30,830 nucleotides of DNA. It comes from a virus. The notes under the pieces are model-generated. The model saw only the letters and a program-made list of their open reading frames with translations, had not been told where the DNA came from and made no database searches. The first letter of the stretch is position 1. Each line of letters begins with the position of its first letter. The stretch covers positions 1 through 30,830 of IMG/VR virus record IMGVR_UViG_3300025671_000318; one strand, written 5' to 3'. The translations under genes were made by a program, and so were the position numbers. This document shows, piece by piece, positions 7,273 through 27,061 of the stretch.

Positions 7273-7737
7273 ATGAAATTAGAAGCTTTTAGAAAAATTA
7301 TTCGAGAAGAAGTAAGAGGTGTAATTAAAGAAGAACTTTCTTTGATTATGCAAACTCCTATTACTGAAACAAAAGTAGTCCAGAAGCCAGTTGTAGAACA
7401 AAAACAAACAAAACCTTCATTATCTGAATTAACAGAGACAGTACAACCTTCTGTTCCACAACCTCCCTTATTTGATTCACAAAACCCCTTAGCACAAATG
7501 TTAAATGAAACAGCTGCTTCAGGAGAATGGAGAAATATAAATGGAGGTGGATATACTTCTCAAAATGCAGTTGGGTTCCAAGGTGGAATGCCTGGTGGTG
7601 CAACTAAAGTAGTTGAAAGCGTAGATCAGATGTTAGCTGGAAAACAAGGAGCTACAGATATAAACCAAGTATCAATTGATGCTGTACCAGACTTTTCAGG
7701 TTTAATGGGTAAAATGAAAGAATCAGGCAAAATATAA
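7273..7737 (+). CDS. Small virion-associated protein with capsid-targeting-like N-terminus
   Basis: A 154-residue protein with three parts. Residues 1-26 are an amphipathic helix (MKLEAFRKIIREEVRGVIKE). Residues 27-70 are a Pro/Gln/Thr/Val-rich, probably disordered linker. Residues 70-154 are a Gly/Asn/Gln-rich region with no recognisable fold. The N-terminal helix has the same form as the starts of the genes at 26261-30830, with [I/L]-x-E at residues 10-12 and again at 18-20 (IKE). In T4 such N-termini target internal proteins to the prohead and are cut after Glu. It is odd to find one between baseplate genes. The gene has its own putative promoter and overlaps the gp25 gene by one base (TAATG). 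Confidence 0.6.
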   Translation: MKLEAFRKIIREEVRGVIKEELSLIMQTPITETKVVQKPVVEQKQTKPSLSELTETVQPSVPQPPLFDSQNPLAQMLNETAASGEWRNINGGGYTSQNAVGFQGGMPGGATKVVESVDQMLAGKQGATDINQVSIDAVPDFSGLMGKMKESGKI

Positions 7738-8156
7738 TGGCATATATAGTACGTAATGTTGATATTCTAGATTTAAAACCTAGTACGGGTGTAGGTGTAT
7801 CTATACCCTTTAATGGTCCTACAGGATTAAATACAACTTATACTACACAAGATGCAATTAAATCAAACCTTTTAAATTTTATCTTAACAGGTAAAAGAGA
7901 AAGAATAATGAACCCTGGATTTGGATCAGGATTACGTGATGTAATTTTTGAACAACTAACCCCAGAAGTAATAGATACAATTGAAGATATTATCGTCAAT
8001 GGTGTAGATTTATATTTTCCACAAATAACAATAGGAACATTAAATGTAAATTTAGACCCTGAAACCCAAACCGTATCTATCTATTTAAGTTATTCCGTAG
8101 ATAATACGAATATTACAGATGAATTACAAATAAACCTAAACAATGGCGGAGTCTAA
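7737..8156 (+). CDS. gp25: Baseplate wedge protein, gp25/gpW-like
   Basis: A 139-residue protein of the gp25 (P2 gpW) family, which nucleates the contractile sheath on the baseplate. The diagnostic stretch is LTGKRERIMNPGFGSGLRD at about residues 50-70, matching the family core in which a Pro-x-F/Y-Gly-x-Gly-Leu turn leads into a helix. A helix (LTPEVIDTIEDIIVNGVDLY) follows, then a beta sheet ending ITDELQINLNNG. Length fits the family (about 100-140). The following gene is the gp6/gpJ homologue, and this pair is conserved in contractile injection machines. The gene overlaps it by 14 bases, and there is no Shine-Dalgarno sequence. Confidence 0.9.
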   Translation: MAYIVRNVDILDLKPSTGVGVSIPFNGPTGLNTTYTTQDAIKSNLLNFILTGKRERIMNPGFGSGLRDVIFEQLTPEVIDTIEDIIVNGVDLYFPQITIGTLNVNLDPETQTVSIYLSYSVDNTNITDELQINLNNGGV

Positions 8157-10020
8157 GCAAATACAATATTTAAATAAAGACTTTGATGGATTTAAACAGA
8201 AACTCTTAGAGTTCGCTGAAATTTATTATCCCCAAACCTATAATGATTTTTCTGAGACCTCCCCTGGGTTGATGTTAATTGAAATGGCATCTTATGTTGG
8301 TGACGTTTTATCATTTTACGTTGACAATCAAGTTCAAGAAAATTTTCTTCAATATGCTAAACAAAGAAGTAACTTACTTTCCTTAGCTTATAACCACGGT
8401 TACTCCCCTCAGGTAACTAATGCTTCAACAGCAGAAGTTGATGTGTTTCAAATTGTACCTTCCTCTATAGCTAGCGGTTTAGTACAACCCGATTTTAATT
8501 ATGCAATGATTATAGATGATGGGTTTCAAATACAATCATCTAATGATACATCTCAATTCTTTTATTCATCAAATAAAATAGATTTTACTATTTCGGGAAG
8601 TGCAGATCCAACTGATATATCTGTATATTCTTTAGATTCAAATAACCAACCTAATTTTTATCTTTTAAAGAAAAAGGTTAAAATGACAGCTGGTGCTTTA
8701 AAAACTGCTACTTTTTCATTTACCTCTCCTCAAAGATTTTCAACTGTACAAATTGAAGATAATAATATAATTGAAATAGTTAATGTAACCGATAGTGATG
8801 ATAATAGATGGTATGAGGTTCCATATCTAGCACAAGAAACTATATTTGATGAACAAACTAATATAGCTCAAAATGATCCTGAACTGTATCAATATAATGA
8901 AACTACTCCCTATCTTCTTAAAATAAAAAAAGTACCTAGGAGATTTGTAAGTAGATTTAAAGCTAATAACACCTTAGAATTACAATTTGGTCCTGGTATA
9001 TCTGATAGTCCTGATCAAGAAATTATTCCTAATCCTGACAATATAGGACTAGGTTTACCCTATGGTCAAGATAAACTTACTACAGCTTATGATCCTTCAA
9101 ATTTTTTATATACAAAAACTTATGGTTTATCCCCTTCTAATACAACTTTAACAGTACAGTATTTAATAGGTGGTGGGGCTGCCTCAAATGTAAGCTCAAA
9201 TTCACTTACAATTTTATCCTCAGGAAATGTTTCATTTTTTGGATCTAATCTTGATTCAACATTACAATCTACAGTTAGAGATTCATTAGCTTTTACTAAT
9301 AATACTCCTGCAATTGGAGGGGGAGATGGAGACACAAATGAAGATATAAGACAAAATACTATATCTCAATTTCCCACACAATTAAGAACTGTAACTAAAG
9401 ATGATTATATAGTTAGATCACTTTCATTACCTCCTAAATTTGGAACTGTATCTAAAGTATATATAACACAAGATCTTTCAATATCACCTAATAATAGAAC
9501 CCCAGAAAATTCTTACGATACAAATTTATTAGCTTTATATCTTTTATCTAAAAATAACGCTGGATATATGTCTATAGCAGATCCTGCTTTAAAAAACAAC
9601 CTAATTACTTTTTTAGGTGAATATAGAATGTTAACAGATGCTGTAGTAATTAAAGATGCTTTTATAATTAATATAGGAATTAATTTTGATATAATTTTAC
9701 TACCTAACTATAATAATAGAGTAGTTATTAATAATTGTATTAATGCTATTACTAATTATTTTGATATAGATAAATGGCAAATAAATCAACCTATATTATT
9801 AAACAATGTTCGTAATTTAATTGATAATGTAGATGGTGTTCAAACTATTAAAAAATTAGAAATAATAAATAAAGTAGGAACTAGTAATGACTATTCACAA
9901 TATGCTTATGATATAAGAGGAGCTACTATAAATGAAGTTATTTACCCTTCATTAGATCCTTCTATATTTGAATTAAAATTCCCTTCTACTGATATAAATG
10001 GTAGGGTAGTAACAAACTAA
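8143..10020 (+). CDS. gp6: Baseplate wedge protein, gp6/gpJ (baseplate J)-like
   Basis: A 625-residue protein of the gp6 type, the central dimeric component of the T4 wedge that forms the inner baseplate ring. The N-terminus is characteristic: YLNKDFDGFKQKLLEFAEIY, then YNDFSETSPGLMLIEMASYV, GDVLSFYVDNQVQENF and SLAYNHGYSP. This is the helical region conserved across T4-like gp6. The middle is a large beta-rich insertion (about 100-400). The C-terminal part (about 415-625) has RTVTKDDYIVRSLSLPPKFG, the baseplate J core motif, and a final alpha/beta domain. Length agrees with T4 gp6 (about 660). The order gp25-gp6 is as in other myophages. Confidence 0.9.
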   Translation: MAESKQIQYLNKDFDGFKQKLLEFAEIYYPQTYNDFSETSPGLMLIEMASYVGDVLSFYVDNQVQENFLQYAKQRSNLLSLAYNHGYSPQVTNASTAEVDVFQIVPSSIASGLVQPDFNYAMIIDDGFQIQSSNDTSQFFYSSNKIDFTISGSADPTDISVYSLDSNNQPNFYLLKKKVKMTAGALKTATFSFTSPQRFSTVQIEDNNIIEIVNVTDSDDNRWYEVPYLAQETIFDEQTNIAQNDPELYQYNETTPYLLKIKKVPRRFVSRFKANNTLELQFGPGISDSPDQEIIPNPDNIGLGLPYGQDKLTTAYDPSNFLYTKTYGLSPSNTTLTVQYLIGGGAASNVSSNSLTILSSGNVSFFGSNLDSTLQSTVRDSLAFTNNTPAIGGGDGDTNEDIRQNTISQFPTQLRTVTKDDYIVRSLSLPPKFGTVSKVYITQDLSISPNNRTPENSYDTNLLALYLLSKNNAGYMSIADPALKNNLITFLGEYRMLTDAVVIKDAFIINIGINFDIILLPNYNNRVVINNCINAITNYFDIDKWQINQPILLNNVRNLIDNVDGVQTIKKLEIINKVGTSNDYSQYAYDIRGATINEVIYPSLDPSIFELKFPSTDINGRVVTN

Positions 10021-17509: not shown

Positions 17510-18550
17510 ATGAGCTTCGTAAGTTTAAATGCTAGTGATTTTGTAGTTAGTGCGGATTCTATCACATCTACTTTGTGGACAGGTGGAGAACCTATTCTAA
17601 ACAAATTTTTCACTTCTTCTCAAACATCTTCTTTTAACACATATTTAGATGTTTACCAAACTAGTTCCGTAAGATCAGATTCTGAAATTCAGTTTTCGAT
17701 TGCTTATGGAGAATTAGAAGGTTCAGGTTCTGCACCCTATAATAATTTAGTAACAGGAAGTTCTCCTTCTAGAGTAACCTATGGTCAATTTAGAACTTTA
17801 GTAAATGGCGATGAAAATACAAACTTTAGTTTTGGAACCGGAAACACAAATTCTAGAGACATTTATGTATTAAATATCAATAGAGCAAGATATAAAGAAA
17901 AATTATTCCCTGGTACATTTAATTTAGTATTATCTGGATCAGATGGTACTGAAATTTCTCGTATACAATTAACTGATAATTCTAAAGATGTATCTACCTT
18001 AACTTTTACAGATGCTGGTAGAATATTTGATATTGTAAGTGGTACTAATGGTAGTGCTGTAGATGTTAGTGTAACTGAAAGTGTAACTCCTGGTTATACA
18101 CCTTCTGGATCTTATGGAAAATTTTTACCTGATGTAGGTTTAATACTTTTAAATCCAAGAGCATTAGCCTTATCTGCTTCTCAAGGAGGAGTAGGACTAA
18201 TACTTAGTGATGATTTAACAGACACTGCTCTTGTAAATAACAATAGTAACCTGTTTGAATCAATAAAATTAGCCCAAACCTTTTCACTCAATTCAGAAGA
18301 AACTATAACATCAGATTATATATTTGTAAGAGTAAGAAATACAGATTTTAATTATTCAACTAACCCTTCTATGATTAGTGGTAGTGGAGAATTTGTATAC
18401 TCAAGTTTAATTAATAACCCCCAAACATTTATAACAACTGTAGGTTTATATAATGATGCTACTGAATTACTATCTGTAGCTAAATTATCAAAACCATTAG
18501 TTAAAGATTTCACAAAAGAAGCTCTAGTAAGAGTAAAATTAGATTTTTAA
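17510..18550 (+). CDS. Virion structural protein with C-terminal module shared with the 99-residue protein
   Basis: A 346-residue, beta-rich protein. The middle has repeated Gly/Ser/Asp strands (FPGTFNLVLSGSDGTEISRI). Residues about 268-346 contain DFNYSTNPSMIS, TFITTVGLYNDATELLSVAK and LSKP before the C-terminal strand VRVKLDF. The protein encoded at 23582-23881 is essentially this module alone, with FNMSQNPTITT, YVTTIGLYNEANELLIVGK and LAQP at corresponding positions. The shared module suggests a common attachment or assembly domain in two virion proteins that flank the large adhesins. The gene begins four bases after the upstream stop and ends three bases before the next start. Which virion part it belongs to is inferred from context. 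Confidence 0.6.
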   Translation: MSFVSLNASDFVVSADSITSTLWTGGEPILNKFFTSSQTSSFNTYLDVYQTSSVRSDSEIQFSIAYGELEGSGSAPYNNLVTGSSPSRVTYGQFRTLVNGDENTNFSFGTGNTNSRDIYVLNINRARYKEKLFPGTFNLVLSGSDGTEISRIQLTDNSKDVSTLTFTDAGRIFDIVSGTNGSAVDVSVTESVTPGYTPSGSYGKFLPDVGLILLNPRALALSASQGGVGLILSDDLTDTALVNNNSNLFESIKLAQTFSLNSEETITSDYIFVRVRNTDFNYSTNPSMISGSGEFVYSSLINNPQTFITTVGLYNDATELLSVAKLSKPLVKDFTKEALVRVKLDF

Positions 18551-18553
18551 TGA

Positions 18554-21500
18554 ATGAGTTTTGCATACAAAAAGATAAATCCGTCTGATATAAAATCAGT
18601 ACCTTATGTTGCTAATAAGCAATATGAGTTTACTTCAGAATCTTATTCCGATAATAATATACAAACTTACGTTGGTGAATACATTCCTGTATCAGAAAAA
18701 AATCCTTTTGATCCAGTAAATGATAATCTTACTACAGATGGAAATTATAGAAGACTATTATTTGAATCTATTCGCCATTTATATTATGAAAATTACATAA
18801 CAGCATCTTCATTAGATCAACTCCCTGTTTCTAATGATCTTTTATATGCCACCAATATAAATTATTTTTGGCATACTTCTTCATATATAAATTATGAACA
18901 AAATACTATGGCCTCTGGGTCATATCCTAATTTTAAAAATTTTCCTTATTTTACAGCTTTACAATTTAACTATGATGATCCTACAGGTTCATATTATGAT
19001 GGTAATGCTGTTTACTTTCAAGATAATGCCGCTAGAGTTAGAATAATATCTATTCCTAAAGACAAATATGGTGAAGGAATTAAACCTTATTCTTTTATAC
19101 TTTCAGGTTCTAATTTTTATATAGCAGACGATGGTCAGGGAAATTTATTTGATTATGAAGCTTTTAGAGCTGAATATTTGTCTGCACAATATTCCGATCC
19201 AATATCAAAGTATGCCGGATTAAGTATTAATGATCAAGTACCTAATGTTGGTAATATTTTTTATGGACACGGGGTAGCAGTTGTTACAAATCAAGATTAT
19301 ATCTGTTTTATAGAAGGTAACCCTGTAGCTAAAAATGATTATTACGATTTAATTAATACACAAGAAGAAAAAAATCTATTAATATTAGCTAATGATTTTG
19401 ATGACTGTTTACAAATAGATACTACTTCAGTAGTTACCTTCCCATTCCCTGATTATACATTCCCGGATTATAGTGTAAGTAGTAGTGGAGATATTGTAAT
19501 TACCCCTAATCAAACTAGTGTAACTCCTGGTGAATATAGGTTACAATATTCTTATCAAAATAATTTAGGACTAGTAAGTAATACTGGGTCTATATTTTTA
19601 AATATAAATGCTGATCCATTAGAATTTACTATAAACTCTGTAACCCAAGCATGTTATCTTAACCCTGACAACATCTCATCTTCAGTAACATTTTCAGTAG
19701 ATAAAGGAGTTCCTCCTTATAGTTGGTCAGTAGATAACTCTACATACATTCCTATAGATGATTTATTCCAACCTATAATTACTGCATCTATACTTCCAAC
19801 TAGATCACAAGTAATATATGTTAAAGATTATGAAGGCTCAATATCAACTGCTTCTATTAATACTGGATTTAATAGAATATCATGTTCAATATGGGAAGAT
19901 GATGTTTCATTTTGTGGTACAACCGATGGTGCTATATTAATTAGTGCTAGTGATGGTTATTTAGGAGACACATCCTCTTTATCGGCTTCATTATCTACTT
20001 CATTTGATAATGCTATAGGTTTACCTGCTACATTCCCTAGCCTATCAGTAGGAACTTACAATGTAATAATAAAAGATGCTAATAATTGTACATCTGTTTC
20101 TCAAATGGAAGTAACTAAAACTGCTCCTGTAACAGTTAGTTATTTAATAGACCATATAGATTGTTTTGGTTCATCTACTGGAATAATTGAATTTGATGAT
20201 GCAGACATGGACACTCAAGAAACGGGGAGTGATAATGGAGGAACTGAGAAAGTTTATTTAGAGGGAGGTAAAGAACCCCTTGAATTTGAATGGTCAGGTC
20301 CTAATGGCTTTACAACTACCTCACAAGAATTATACAATGTTCCCTCAGGAAGTTATATTTTAAATATTACAGATGATGATGGGTGTATTTATGGATTTAA
20401 TTATGAAATAACTACCTCAGCTAAAATCGAATTTACGGCTAATGTAACTTATAGTAATGAAGAATATCCTATATTACTTATTAATGATCTTACAGGTGGT
20501 GTCCCTCCATATAATATAACAGCTTCAACTCCCTTTTCAGAATACTTGTTTACAGCAAGTGTTACAAATAGTTATGAGTTTGATTTAAATGGTGAAGGTT
20601 TAAATTCAAGTTCAGTAACAGTTTCCATTCAAGATTCAATCTCATGTTCAGCTGATACTCAAAGTCAAGAAATTTATGGAAGAGTATGGGAAGTAATAGA
20701 TACTTTTTGTGAAGACGGTACAGGTAGTGTAGCACAACGTAATCTTAATTTTTACACTAATGAACCTACAGGAGCAGAATGGGTAACAGTAAAAATCAGA
20801 TCTGGAAGTGAAACACCTGTTGAATTAGCTACTTCAGGAAGTGCTACTGGTAGTTATTCATATAATACTAATGATACTTTATTTATAGATATATTTACTG
20901 GGTCTAATGATGCATTTTATTTAAGAAGAGAATATAGTGGATCTAGTGATACAAGTGGTAGTGCTGCTAATGTTACTGGAAGTGAAGTTACTAATTCCTT
21001 AATTATATCTGGAAATGCTAATTTGTCTCATTTCGATCAAAACTTAGATGTTTCCCTAGCATTTGGTTTAGAATACTCAGCTTCAATTGAAGCTTTACAT
21101 TTAACAGTATCTAAAGTTAATACTGAAGAAGAAACTACTAATATAAACTTTAAATTTGATAGACAAATACCTTTATCAAAAATTAGAGATAACTTTACAG
21201 CAAGTGTTGAAAATTTATCTTTAACAGGAAGTGGGGGTACTGCTATAGCAGATGGATCTGGTAGTAATTTTATAGCTAGAAACGATGAATTTACAGATAT
21301 TCTTTATGGTAGTACAGGTAGCTTTATAGGTCCTAATAAAAAATTATTTAGACCTACTTATGCATTTGGAAATATATTCAACACCGTTTCTGGATCAAAT
21401 GTAGAATATACTAGTGGATCTATTTGGAGTGGATCTGTATCTGCAAGTTACTTTGGAGCTGATAATGCATATTATTTTACTCAAAGAGAAGATAAAATGT

Positions 21501-21892
21501 GGTTATTAACAGCAGATATAGATCATATTGGATTTTTAGAAGCTTATTCGTATACTGACCCAACACAATTTTCAAGTGATCCTATAGGAACCAGAACCAA
21601 TTTAGATCCCTATACCCACAGAGATTATACAATCTATGCTGGCTCTCAGAAAATGGAACATGATCTTATGTATATTATGATAATACATGAAGATGAAAAT
21701 ACAACAATGCCTTTACCAACAGGTATAGGAGGAGGAGAAATATTCTCTAGAAGATTAGAAAATATACAAGATGTTAACCGTATTTACTATTTATTTTTGT
21801 CACCAAATGCTACAACAGGATCCCAGGCAGAAATAGACAATAGAGCAGTTGCAGTAGGAAAATATTTTATAGATAACGTAATTTATGGCTAA
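18554..21892 (+). CDS. Large adhesin with SprB-like repeats
   Basis: A 1112-residue protein. The N-terminal 300 residues look like a virion-anchoring region (FAYKKINPSDIKSVPYVANK; later VGNIFYGHGVAVVTN). Residues about 364-650 hold beta repeats of the SprB type known from Bacteroidetes surface adhesins: Cys in strand 1 (ISCSIWEDDVSFCGTTDGAI; IDHIDCFGSSTGIIEF), the central FEWSGPNGFTTTSQELYNVP, and the closing GSYILNITDDDGC. Paired Cys at these positions would be typical. The last 400 residues are a Ser/Gly-rich beta region ending in a compact domain. Mimicry of a host adhesin or binding to a gliding-bacterium surface is likely. It overlaps the next gene by eight bases. Confidence 0.7.
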   Translation: MSFAYKKINPSDIKSVPYVANKQYEFTSESYSDNNIQTYVGEYIPVSEKNPFDPVNDNLTTDGNYRRLLFESIRHLYYENYITASSLDQLPVSNDLLYATNINYFWHTSSYINYEQNTMASGSYPNFKNFPYFTALQFNYDDPTGSYYDGNAVYFQDNAARVRIISIPKDKYGEGIKPYSFILSGSNFYIADDGQGNLFDYEAFRAEYLSAQYSDPISKYAGLSINDQVPNVGNIFYGHGVAVVTNQDYICFIEGNPVAKNDYYDLINTQEEKNLLILANDFDDCLQIDTTSVVTFPFPDYTFPDYSVSSSGDIVITPNQTSVTPGEYRLQYSYQNNLGLVSNTGSIFLNINADPLEFTINSVTQACYLNPDNISSSVTFSVDKGVPPYSWSVDNSTYIPIDDLFQPIITASILPTRSQVIYVKDYEGSISTASINTGFNRISCSIWEDDVSFCGTTDGAILISASDGYLGDTSSLSASLSTSFDNAIGLPATFPSLSVGTYNVIIKDANNCTSVSQMEVTKTAPVTVSYLIDHIDCFGSSTGIIEFDDADMDTQETGSDNGGTEKVYLEGGKEPLEFEWSGPNGFTTTSQELYNVPSGSYILNITDDDGCIYGFNYEITTSAKIEFTANVTYSNEEYPILLINDLTGGVPPYNITASTPFSEYLFTASVTNSYEFDLNGEGLNSSSVTVSIQDSISCSADTQSQEIYGRVWEVIDTFCEDGTGSVAQRNLNFYTNEPTGAEWVTVKIRSGSETPVELATSGSATGSYSYNTNDTLFIDIFTGSNDAFYLRREYSGSSDTSGSAANVTGSEVTNSLIISGNANLSHFDQNLDVSLAFGLEYSASIEALHLTVSKVNTEEETTNINFKFDRQIPLSKIRDNFTASVENLSLTGSGGTAIADGSGSNFIARNDEFTDILYGSTGSFIGPNKKLFRPTYAFGNIFNTVSGSNVEYTSGSIWSGSVSASYFGADNAYYFTQREDKMWLLTADIDHIGFLEAYSYTDPTQFSSDPIGTRTNLDPYTHRDYTIYAGSQKMEHDLMYIMIIHEDENTTMPLPTGIGGGEIFSRRLENIQDVNRIYYLFLSPNATTGSQAEIDNRAVAVGKYFIDNVIYG

Positions 21893-23579
21893 TACAGGCT
21901 ACAAAAGAATACCGACAGTAAAACAATTCTTCACAACAGGTCCACAATCTGGTAGTGTAGTATCGGCTTCTTATGACAGAGATTTAACTGTTACTCCCTT
22001 TAGTGCTTCATTAGACAATGTAACATTCTATAATAGATCATTTGATCCAGAAACATGCGAAATTGGATTTGAAGATTGTTTAGTACCTTTACTTACTAGT
22101 TTAAATACTGGATCTTTAAGAGGAAGATTTGAAATAACTTACGTTACTCAATCTGGGTTTAATCCCCCCTTAGATATAACTGCTTCAGTTGCTAACAATG
22201 AAAGTTTTGCTAATTCTGAAATATTTTCTGCTTCAATTGGAAATACAATTCCTATTACTTCTTCATTTGTAAGTGGAACTGTATATTTTAAGGCATTTAC
22301 ATCATGTAGTGGTCCTACTCCTTCTCCCGATTCATCCCCACTATCCTTTACTTTTAACCCTCTTTCTCCTCCTAGAGGAAATGCAAATATAGTTTTTACA
22401 AATAACTATTCTACTACTATGAAAGTAGAAATACGAAGTGAAAGAGGAAATCAAAATTATAATATAGCCCCTAGAGCTTCAGTAACTTACAATTATGTAG
22501 AAACTGCTAATCCTGGCTCTTGGTCAACAACAGGTAAAGCTGACCCTTTAAATATTACTATAAAAGGGGGAGCTAAAAATACTTATGGTAATTATATCCA
22601 AAGAAGAACAAATGATGAAAATAGAGTAATTTTTACTTCTGGAGGAGGATTTGGAGGAACTGATAAAACTGAAAATAGTAGTACATTTGTTCCTGATAAA
22701 GGATTAACCTTTAAAATCCAACAATTAGAATTACCCCCTGTAGGAACTACATCAACAACAACCTTTACTTTATTAGCTAATACCCCTCCTCCTGCAGTTG
22801 CACCTCCAACTGCTGTCCCGGAACTTGTATTTGGTACATCTCCTTTTTCTACCCAAGCAGAAATTTGTAATTTTACCCGAAATTTTAGAGAAAGAACTTA
22901 TTATTTATTTAATAATTATTTATATAATACCCAAGCTGATGCCTTAGCTGATAGAAAAGCTACATATCCTAATGAAGATAATTATATACTAATAAACCAA
23001 ACTCGATTTTTAAAAGTAAATAAACAGGGATACACTTTTGGTTTAGGTTTTGGTAGTGGTGATTGCCCTACTAATTCATATAGATTATCTACCTCCTCCA
23101 CTCCTACTGCTATTGAAGCTTGTAAAAGAACTTCATGGTTTAGTAGCTCACGTTATTATACATTTAAAAATAATACTCTAATAGACTCTTTTGGATATAG
23201 AAGATCTGGATATTTTTGGCAATACAATGGTGCTGGAAGAAAACCTAGTAAAATATTTTTAATTAGTGGAGGTAAGTTTATAGCAACACAAGATTGTTCA
23301 ACTGACGTATTTAGAAATCAACCACTTTTACCACTTTATGGCGGTTTTAAAGATTTTGGACCTGAGGGATGGGAATCAATTTCACCTTCATCAAAAAGAT
23401 ATGCTAAAGTAACACCTGACTATAGGTATAGAACATATTATATAGATTCTTCAACGGGTCAATACTTTAGATACGGTTCCTTCAATTTTTACTACTTATC
23501 AGGATGGGCTTATAACAAACCAGCTCAACAATTTTTATACTTTCAAAATGGTATTATCACACACACTTTTCGAACTTAA
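21885..23579 (+). CDS. Probable receptor-binding tail fibre protein with C-terminal repeat modules
   Basis: A 564-residue protein. Residues 1-150 are an anchoring domain (GYKRIPTVKQFFTTG; TFYNRSFDPETCEIGFEDC). Residues about 165-290 are a beta sandwich. A Pro/Ala linker (NTPPPAVAPPTAVPE, about 299-313) then separates a Tyr/Phe-rich C-terminal region of about 250 residues. In that region two or three units repeat a pattern of Cys, then Arg-x-Tyr-Tyr-x-Phe, then an Asn-Leu turn, then a Gly/Cys end (ICNFTRNFRERTYYLFNN; EACKRTSWFSSSRYYTFKNN; DYRYRTYYIDSSTGQYFRYG). Such terminal aromatic repeats behind a flexible linker are what one expects of a receptor-binding tip. The call rests on architecture and position, not on a named family. 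Confidence 0.55.
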   Translation: MANTGYKRIPTVKQFFTTGPQSGSVVSASYDRDLTVTPFSASLDNVTFYNRSFDPETCEIGFEDCLVPLLTSLNTGSLRGRFEITYVTQSGFNPPLDITASVANNESFANSEIFSASIGNTIPITSSFVSGTVYFKAFTSCSGPTPSPDSSPLSFTFNPLSPPRGNANIVFTNNYSTTMKVEIRSERGNQNYNIAPRASVTYNYVETANPGSWSTTGKADPLNITIKGGAKNTYGNYIQRRTNDENRVIFTSGGGFGGTDKTENSSTFVPDKGLTFKIQQLELPPVGTTSTTTFTLLANTPPPAVAPPTAVPELVFGTSPFSTQAEICNFTRNFRERTYYLFNNYLYNTQADALADRKATYPNEDNYILINQTRFLKVNKQGYTFGLGFGSGDCPTNSYRLSTSSTPTAIEACKRTSWFSSSRYYTFKNNTLIDSFGYRRSGYFWQYNGAGRKPSKIFLISGGKFIATQDCSTDVFRNQPLLPLYGGFKDFGPEGWESISPSSKRYAKVTPDYRYRTYYIDSSTGQYFRYGSFNFYYLSGWAYNKPAQQFLYFQNGIITHTFRT

Positions 23580-23581
23580 CT

Positions 23582-23881
23582 ATGGCTTTAACAGTAGGAC
23601 CAAATAAATTATCATTTAAAAATAGATATACAGTTTACGAAAACGAACTTGTATGTACTATTGAACAAAATGAATTCAATATGAGCCAAAATCCGACTAT
23701 AACAACGGACACTTCAGGCTCATTAAGAGATTTTGCTACAGGCTCGGATTTTCAACCTTACGTTACAACTATAGGATTATATAACGAAGCAAATGAACTA
23801 TTAATAGTAGGTAAATTAGCACAACCTACATTATTATCAACTAAAACTGATACAACGTTCGTAATTAGATACGATCAATAA
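23582..23881 (+). CDS. Small virion protein made of the shared YVTTIGLYN module
   Basis: A 99-residue protein that consists almost entirely of the module found at the C-terminus of the 346-residue protein (17510-18550): EFNMSQNPTITTDTSGS, then YVTTIGLYNEANELLIVGKL, then a strand ending VIRYDQ. The first 20 residues (ALTVGPNKLSFKNRYTVYEN) are specific to it. It starts two bases after the fibre gene and ends the adhesin block. A capping or joining role for a fibre or baseplate arm is reasonable. DNA here looks richer in GC and CG dinucleotides than the fibre gene before it. Confidence 0.65.
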   Translation: MALTVGPNKLSFKNRYTVYENELVCTIEQNEFNMSQNPTITTDTSGSLRDFATGSDFQPYVTTIGLYNEANELLIVGKLAQPTLLSTKTDTTFVIRYDQ

Positions 23882-23890
23882 AAACACAAT

Positions 23891-24310
23891 ATGTGGTTAT
23901 ATAAAGGAGAGGTTATAGGGAGCATCGAACAGATGCCCGAAAATACATTTGGTTTCATTTACGAGGCTACTTATATTCCAACTAAAGAAAAATATCTAGG
24001 GAAAAAGGTACTATTTTTTAATCGTACTTTACCACCTTTAAAAGGTGCTAAACGCAAACGTAAAGTAGTTAAAGAAAGTGACTGGCAAACCTACTATGGT
24101 TCACACACAAAAATCAAACAATTACTATTAGAAGGTAAACAAGAAGATTTTTCACGTGAAATACTAGAATTTGCATTTAACAAAAAACATCTTACATACC
24201 TAGAAACAAAATATCAATTCTGTAATAACGTACTTGAAAACACAGAATATATAAACGATAATATTTTAGGTAAATTCTTCAGAAAAGACTTGGTAAACCC
24301 AAATACTTAA
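23891..24310 (+). CDS. GIY-YIG-like nuclease-family protein
   Basis: A 139-residue protein resembling small GIY-YIG-like proteins that are common in T4-like phages. FGFIYEATYIPTKEKYLGKK (about residues 20-39) corresponds to the GIY...YIG strands, with Phe-Ile-Tyr in the first and Tyr-Leu-Gly in the second. A basic stretch (KGAKRKRKVVKESDW) and YYGSHTKIKQLLLEGKQEDF follow, then EILEFAFNKKHLTYLETKYQ, which may hold the catalytic-type Glu. The deviation of both core triplets (FIY/YLG) leaves activity uncertain. It separates the fibre block from the replication genes, a typical position for a free-standing homing-type endonuclease. It could also be a domesticated core gene. Confidence 0.6.
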   Translation: MWLYKGEVIGSIEQMPENTFGFIYEATYIPTKEKYLGKKVLFFNRTLPPLKGAKRKRKVVKESDWQTYYGSHTKIKQLLLEGKQEDFSREILEFAFNKKHLTYLETKYQFCNNVLENTEYINDNILGKFFRKDLVNPNT

Positions 24311-26260: not shown

Positions 26261-27061
26261 ATGTATAAATTACGAGATATAATCTTAGAACAATCCGTTA
26301 ATCCTAAGGCACTTATACTTGCTGGCTCTCCAGGAGCTGGTAAATCTTCGTTTATCGAAGGTGTAAAGAATGCTTTAATATTAAATGTAGATGATTTCTA
26401 CATGCGTAATCTAAAAGATTTAAATGTATCTTTAGATTTAAAAAATGCAAATGCTGAAGATCGAAGTAAAGCAGCACAAGCAATGGCTGCAGCTAATAAG
26501 GAATTTCGCCCAATGACACGTGAAATTATCTTAGGTAAAAAGAATTTTATCTTAGATGGAACAGCTGCTTCTTCTGGACCTACATTAAAATTGAAGGCTG
26601 AATTAGAAGAACTAGGCTATGATGTATTAATGGTATATGTATTTGCTTCACTAGAAAAAGCACTAGAACGAAATGATACACGATTTGATCGTTCAGGTGG
26701 AAAAGACAGAAGTTTAGCACCTGCTATCGTACTTCGTACTTGGAATAATATAACTCAAAACTACGAGTTGTATCAAAAAGAATTTGGAAACAATTTTGTA
26801 TCGGTTGTAAACGATAAAGCATTAGAAAAAGGAGAATCTATGAAATCTTTAGAAGATTTAATAGATAAATATCTTACACCCTATGCCCCAACTGATACAA
26901 AACCAAAAACCGATAAACAACAAGCTCGTTCTGATGCTTCAAAAGCAGAATTAGAGAAACAAATTAATGATTTTGTAGAATCAGATAAAGTAGAAGATAT
27001 CAAATCAAATTCCGTATCTAAAGACGAGGCAAAATCTAGAGTAAAACAGTTCTTCTCATGA
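26261..27061 (+). CDS. Zeta-toxin-like P-loop kinase with capsid-targeting-like N-terminal tag
   Basis: A 266-residue P-loop kinase. The Walker A motif is G22-S-P-G-A-G-K-S29 in LILAGSPGAGKSSFIEG. LNVDDFY (42-47) and NFILDGTAASSGPT (95-108) match the substrate and Asp positions of zeta-toxin/polynucleotide-kinase-like enzymes, and ALERNDTRFDRSGG supplies the lid arginines. Zeta proteins phosphorylate UDP-N-acetyl sugars; other relatives phosphorylate small molecules or RNA, so the substrate is open. The kinase fold begins at residue 16. The preceding 15 residues (MYKLRDIILEQSVNP) are an extra amphipathic helix with I-L-E at 8-10, matching the tag described in the findings. Residues 200-266 are a charged helical tail. 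No antitoxin gene accompanies it. Confidence 0.72.
   Translation: MYKLRDIILEQSVNPKALILAGSPGAGKSSFIEGVKNALILNVDDFYMRNLKDLNVSLDLKNANAEDRSKAAQAMAAANKEFRPMTREIILGKKNFILDGTAASSGPTLKLKAELEELGYDVLMVYVFASLEKALERNDTRFDRSGGKDRSLAPAIVLRTWNNITQNYELYQKEFGNNFVSVVNDKALEKGESMKSLEDLIDKYLTPYAPTDTKPKTDKQQARSDASKAELEKQINDFVESDKVEDIKSNSVSKDEAKSRVKQFFS

Follow-up and report, generated by a model that had tools for sequence, protein, structure and literature searches.

Does the tail module of a bacteriophage encode the kind of adhesive repeat with which its bacterial host grips surfaces and, if so, does the repeat come from that host? The question is raised by a gene in a 30.8-kb virus record (30,830 nucleotides in full, hereinafter the window), the product of which is identical to a protein encoded in a 44-kb contig. 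A reading of the sequence alone had described this product as a phage adhesin with SprB-like repeats, acquired from or mimicking the surface adhesins of a Bacteroidetes host, perhaps for polysaccharide binding or for riding on the moving cell surface. SprB-type Ig-like repeats are used by gliding, hunting Bacteroidota to stick to surfaces.

Layout and kinship of the repeat array

An exact reading-frame check confirmed that the gene runs from ATG to TAA and encodes 1112 amino acids (Table 1). Residues 356-705 form four tandem beta-sandwich repeats, R1 to R4, two of them strong and two weak; the array is real but degenerate, and it is wider than the stretch of residues about 364-650 to which the sequence-only reading had assigned it. 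The Cys / WSGPNGFT / GSYILNITDDDGC pattern described in that reading reflects degenerate domain repeats, but not literal ones: WSGPNGFT (residues 580-587) and GSYILNITDDDGC (residues 599-611) occur once each, and a literal repeat search found no DNA-level repeats of note in the adhesin gene. What recurs is a loose layout, with a Cys near the start of the unit, a GG..P(Y) turn and then G(S/T)Y.(V/L).I.D..(N/G)C. The model of the full-length protein is poor (pLDDT 54) and gave a fold search of low confidence, so the sub-model of residues 355-709, which consists of beta-sandwich domains throughout (mean pLDDT 86.7), was used instead. The single domain preceding the array appears, by eye, cadherin- or Big-like, with no profile match.

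Table 1. Features of the adhesin locus in window coordinates
Feature	Coordinates	Strand	Basis
Baseplate wedge protein, gp25-like	7737..8156	+	PHROG 261/43
Baseplate wedge protein, gp6-like	8143..10020	+	46% identity to immuto
346-aa tail-module paralog, homolog of immuto gp106 (49%)	17510..18550	+	Adjoins adhesin gene
Adhesin gene, fibre-like protein of the tail module	18554..21892	+	ORF; relatives
Residues 1-255, N-terminal domain, putative attachment domain	18554..19318	+	About 80 phage loci with differing C-terminal parts
Residues 256-355, single beta-sandwich domain	19319..19618	+	Model, pLDDT about 55-83
R1, residues 356-440, weak SprB-type unit	19619..19873	+	7.9 bits; beta-sandwich in model
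R2, residues 441-529, strong SprB-type unit	19874..20140	+	32.6 bits; Bacteroidota SprB over Hoc-like
R3, residues 530-626, strong SprB-type unit with WSGPNGFT and GSYILNITDDDGC	20141..20431	+	32.9 bits; Bacteroidota SprB over Hoc-like
R4, residues 627-705, generic Ig-like, hypervariable among close relatives	20432..20668	+	Profiles; identity comparisons
Residues 706-1112, conserved C-terminal region, missing in distant relatives	20669..21889	+	About 70% identity among orthologs
Next gene, 564 aa, putative distal tip, last ~175 residues variable	21885..23579	+	Close-phage comparison
99-aa ORF	23582..23881	+	Homologous to the C-terminal part of immuto gp105 and neighbouring fibre paralogs

The SprB profile used here comprises 70 positions and was derived from 1,161 Bacteroidota repeats in the 80 best loci retrieved with our own consensus query from 84,980 prokaryote species; by their titles, all 80 loci belong to Bacteroidota, which shows that the repeat is typical of these bacteria, not that it is absent elsewhere. 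The window protein scores 61.9 bits in total on this profile (E 2.5e-21 for one sequence), distributed over copies at residues 377-435 (7.9 bits), 451-529 (32.6), 560-626 (32.9) and 646-704 (8.6). None of 2,000 composition shuffles of the protein fell below E 1e-6 and, among 1,892 reading frames from 84 phage loci, the adhesin gene, intact or split, was the only one to pass 1e-5. By contrast, the Pfam SprB model (PF13573) does not match the window protein at E <= 1, so that the SprB assignment holds with the Bacteroidota-repeat profile but not with the library model. The ten closest relatives are likewise under the Pfam cut-off (best 20.1 bits versus 28), Pfam, NCBIfam and PHROGs assign the window protein to no family, and whole-protein tblastn against phages yielded no matches. 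A 177-aa ORF interrupts the adhesin gene in three homologs (L048:7117-10854, L049:10001-13741 and L052:10001-13797). A Ser/Thr/Pro-rich stretch has been added to the first half, and the second carries the SprB unit, which exceeds the Pfam cut-off in L048 and L049 (41.9 and 36.3 bits) and just misses it in L052.

A match to the SprB profile alone is no proof of a link to Bacteroidota, because Hoc-like domains score equally high. Indeed, a phage search with the SprB consensus returned mainly enterobacterial phages, and the Hoc-like, whisker and tail Ig domains of these phages reach 23-38 bits on the SprB profile, which puts them level with R2 and R3; after this control, the profile was dropped as sole proof of kinship. 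The reverse comparison is more telling. When 1,104 Bacteroidota repeats are scored with R2 and R3 profiles built from the phage family, the medians are 18.7 and 26.9 bits, respectively, as opposed to maxima of 9.7 and 14.9 bits on 13 Hoc-like domains; with both profiles, 91% of the bacterial repeats outscore the best Hoc-like domain, and not one of 2,000 bacterial samples of equal size had a maximum as low as the Hoc-like set, which is small and, like the bacterial set, was picked via the SprB consensus. The R4 profile does not discriminate, reaching 20.7 bits on Hoc-like domains and fitting these as well as SprB repeats. In the wider sense of the term, R2 and R3 are SprB-type, R1 is weakly so and R4 is not.

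The nearest relatives point in the same direction. All tblastn matches of residues 356-706 in 72,556 plasmids up to E 0.1 are from Bacteroidota, namely, Runella (3e-10), Hymenobacter, Spirosoma, Aureispira and Emticicia, the first others being Natronococcus (E 0.2) and Sinorhizobium (E 2); identity to the bacterial copies is about 24-33%. Across all PDB sequences, the sole significant match of the family profile is the Aureispira grappling-hook protein GhpA (3.3e-33), followed by a decoration protein at 0.09. GhpA fragments also took the first six places in a Foldseek search with the repeat-array sub-model (best 3.7e-10) and the first four after structural realignment (Z 10.1-10.9); given that fibronectin scores hardly lower (10.1), the fold is unremarkable and it is the sequence that counts. 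Collectively, these comparisons support the relationship of R2 and R3 to Bacteroidota SprB-type adhesin repeats. Thus, the proposal of SprB-like repeats in a phage tail-module protein is borne out for R2 and R3, and neither of the outcomes that would have spoken against it occurred: the hits are not confined to generic Ig-like domains, since the phage-side profiles favour SprB over phage Ig domains, and the nearest non-phage relatives are Bacteroidota proteins.

Genome context, host and age of the array

The window shares about 20 homologs with Flavobacterium phage immuto, largely in the same order and with roughly 30-75% identity (46% for the gp6-like protein, 50% for the primase and 75% for a 219-aa tail-module protein); Microcystis phage Mel-JY01 is related more distantly. 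The gene order is immuto-like through to the primase, and the similarity extends over the structural module, where the adhesin gene lies in a run of tail and baseplate genes downstream of the gp25- and gp6-like genes. Neither immuto, searched over its whole genome, nor Mel-JY01, the nearest isolates, has a SprB match. Further along the window, positions 23891-24310 encode a GIY-YIG SegE-like endonuclease, the immuto counterpart and matched PHROG of which are annotated as 'NAD synthetase', probably a mislabel, and a Zeta-toxin/AAA_33-type kinase-like ORF (26261-27061; Pfam 53 bits) lies downstream of the primase and a PD-(D/E)XK nuclease.

Shine-Dalgarno-like motifs precede 1 of 27 genes in the window and 1 of 35 in the immuto stretch, as against 15 of 27 in Mel-JY01, and a stricter motif is found upstream of 11 of the 398 genes in loci of the SprB-bearing family. 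Scarcity of this motif is typical of Bacteroidota, though not unique to them. The Bacteroidota -33/-7 promoter motif occurs at 5 sites, versus 2.6 in shuffles. In our judgement, the host very likely belongs to Bacteroidota, probably to Flavobacteriia. A Bacteroidota host had been proposed from the repeats, which were taken as the best host clue in the window; the host assignment is independently supported by the synteny with immuto and the Shine-Dalgarno-poor starts, but the weight given to the repeats was overstated. An SprB profile match in a phage is no host clue by itself, given the equal scores of enterobacterial Hoc-like domains; synteny and translation starts are better ones.

In a tree of the repeats, all phage copies of R3 cluster together (99% support), as do those of R4 (93%) and of R2 (69%, or 92% when the split homologs are included), and these orthologous groups extend to phages with just ~60% identity to the window. 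Because each position forms its own orthologous group, the array shared by these related phages is old and probably dates back to their common ancestor. Phylogeny of the repeats, the check suggested along with the original proposal, grouped the positions across phages but gave neither donor nor direction: the deep forks of this 70-column tree lack resolution, and the donor lineage cannot be named. Acquisition from the host of the phage, as originally proposed, finds no support in the orthology of each repeat position across the family.

Constant and hypervariable parts of a putative tail fibre

The N-terminal ~250 residues of the adhesin recur in about 80 phage loci, joined to C-terminal parts that differ; a conserved N-terminal domain is thus combined with exchangeable or variable outer parts, as in phage tail fibres and adhesins. 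L054 and L069 have the same N-terminal domain, but long linker repeats of Thr and Ser (TTTSTTT) stand where the Ig arm would be. The C-terminal region of L029, L032, L033, L037 and L040 contains an extra stretch of ~110 residues with YYYC.NH..MGG, cupredoxin-like by eye, which in L040 is inserted twice, also inside the repeat array. Among orthologs, mean identity is 67% in the N-terminal part, 55-63% in R1-R3, 40% in R4 and 68-72% in the C-terminal region.

The hypervariability of R4 is the most useful new fact to emerge from this analysis. In two closely related phages, L025 and L027, R4 is 27% identical against a backbone of 94%; at the DNA level, identity is 89-99% up to R4 and 54-62% within it. 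Over the first 17 kb compared, the strong dips fall in R4 and at the end of the next gene, another dip starts near 17.4 kb and, beyond the tail genes further downstream, the loci also differ in gene content. In other near pairs, R4 identity ranges from 26 to 43%, with L028/L031 and L032/L037 as exceptions. Such a near-total difference between near-identical phages is as expected of a host-contacting part. The variation, however, extends over strands as well as loops, so that relaxed constraint or escape could explain R4 instead of a role as binding surface; an antibody-like arrangement with varying loops on a kept frame is not supported, given that the strands vary as much. A diversity-generating retroelement, which changes mainly adenines, is unlikely by inspection, with DNA identity at ~54% along the patch.

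The second variable site lies in the product of the next gene, the reading frame of which shares 8 bases with the adhesin gene; this product diverges strongly among close relatives in the last ~175 residues, its C-terminal third. This end is probably a receptor-binding tip. In L045 and L046, the N-terminal part of the next gene is fused to the SprB arm; given this fusion and the overlap of the ORFs, the adhesin and the next-gene product probably belong to one fibre.

We propose, with a probability of roughly 0.7, that the adhesin forms a long adhesion fibre attached to the baseplate of a T4-like Bacteroidota phage related to Immutovirus, with specificity set by R4 and the next-gene tip. The conserved N-terminal domain would fix the protein to the virion, and an Ig-like rod, comprising one unclassified beta-sandwich and four tandem repeats, with R2 and R3 of the SprB type, would project it outward. 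The conserved C-terminal region would come next, with the product of the overlapping gene as likely partner or tip, and the host contact that sets specificity would most likely reside in the hypervariable R4 and the variable next-gene tip. The SprB-type units might serve mainly as a spacer and adhesive arm, providing reach and weak adhesion suited to a glycan-rich Bacteroidota surface. The geometry of the fibre is uncertain, because the C-terminal region is the most conserved, which is unusual for a fibre tip.

Several other explanations have to be weighed against this fibre. The repeats could be generic phage Ig-like domains of the Hoc, whisker or tail type, acting as a passive spacer with weak glycan affinity, their likeness to SprB being convergent or universal. 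The equal scores of Hoc-like domains, the behaviour of R4 and the failure of the Pfam model all fit this possibility, but the reverse profiles disfavour it for R2 and R3, and the exclusively Bacteroidota plasmid matches and the gap between GhpA and the next PDB entry also speak against it; overall, we consider it unlikely. Far less probable still is a recent capture of SprB repeats from a present Flavobacteriia host, with mimicry of a host surface protein: it would account for the sequence kinship with Bacteroidota adhesins but sits poorly with the low identity to the bacterial copies and with the orthologous grouping of R2, R3 and R4.

An equally improbable option is that the adhesin is a moron, made in the infected cell and exported to its surface, where it would alter host adhesion or block superinfection. 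Such proteins might exist: two huge phages carry SprB proteins with CHU_C type IX signals (L192:10918-15942 in LR756502, 642 kb, with 14 repeats and a signal of 52.6 bits; L193:11011-13206 in LR745206, 635 kb, with 54.2 bits), which apparently are either phage adhesins built for host export or assembly chimeras. The window protein, however, is encoded inside the baseplate/tail run, starts with a domain common to many phage loci and, in searches of Pfam and NCBIfam, contains no CHU_C or Por_Secre_tail domain; a match of one relative to TIGR04183 at E 0.03 is taken as chance. Unlike true SprB adhesins, it has no hydrophobic leader by eye at its N-terminus, MSFAYKKINPSDIK. Thus, it lacks the type IX sorting domain of cell-surface gliding adhesins of the SprB/RemA class and is most likely a virion fibre rather than an exported adhesin. 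The idea that the phage rides on the moving cell surface can be cast in a specific form, whereby the SprB-type arm binds, like to like, the moving SprB-family filaments of the host or their glycan and the gliding conveyor carries the virion until R4 or the tip meets its receptor; we regard this as a long shot. Gliding swarms are reported to transport phage, although without adhesion (PMC10434198).

The type of surface-gripping domain found in gliding and predatory bacteria has also been built into a phage tail-module protein. To our knowledge, few receptor-binding proteins have been described for phages of marine Bacteroidota, and R4 and the next-gene tip, as judged from the comparison of close relatives, are two concrete places where host specificity probably sits.

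Comparison with known systems

The closest genomic counterpart is the gp105 locus of immuto (vB_FspM_immuto, genus Immutovirus), which has the same gene order as the window. The N-terminal 75 residues of gp105 match the adhesin N-terminus with 36% identity, but gp105 is only 357 residues long, compared to 1112 in the window protein, and immuto has no SprB match. R2 and R3 share with the Pfam SprB repeat (PF13573) the layout Cys...GG..P(Y)..W...G(S/T)Y.(V/L).I.D..GC, a period of about 80-97 residues and reciprocal profile matches. Compared to Bacteroidota SprB adhesins, however, the window protein is under the Pfam cut-off, has only four units, two of them weak, and is devoid of a T9SS sorting domain and, by eye, of an export leader. 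GhpA of Aureispira sp. CCB-QB1 (PDB 9flp, 9fls, 9flu-9fly and 9g8b) is likewise a tandem beta-sandwich protein and shares W(S/T)GPNGF with the window protein, but it is a bacterial surface protein of 5,898 residues, and the two superpose loosely (rmsd about 10-11 A over ~295 residues), which reflects domain order, not rigid shape.

A literature search found no papers on SprB repeats in phage tails. The top viral fold match, nevertheless, consists of proteins of uncultured Caudovirales phages (BFVD A0A6J5LD72 and A0A6J5LDA4) that already carry the annotation 'SprB repeat'. Tail-associated proteins of crAss-like phages contain tandem repeats of the BACON domain, a Bacteroidota-type Ig-like domain (PMC6949934), a precedent for such repeats in phage tail proteins, albeit from another domain family; the BACON array of the crAssphage lineage arose via duplications, whereas the window repeats are orthologous position by position. 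Enterobacterial Hoc-like and whisker Ig domains have the same SprB-profile score and resemble R4, whereas R2 and R3 are much closer to Bacteroidota repeats. A phage fibre with Ig-like repeats is of an already known kind; what is new here is a repeat with 27% identity between phages that are otherwise 94% identical, together with the variable tip encoded by the next gene.
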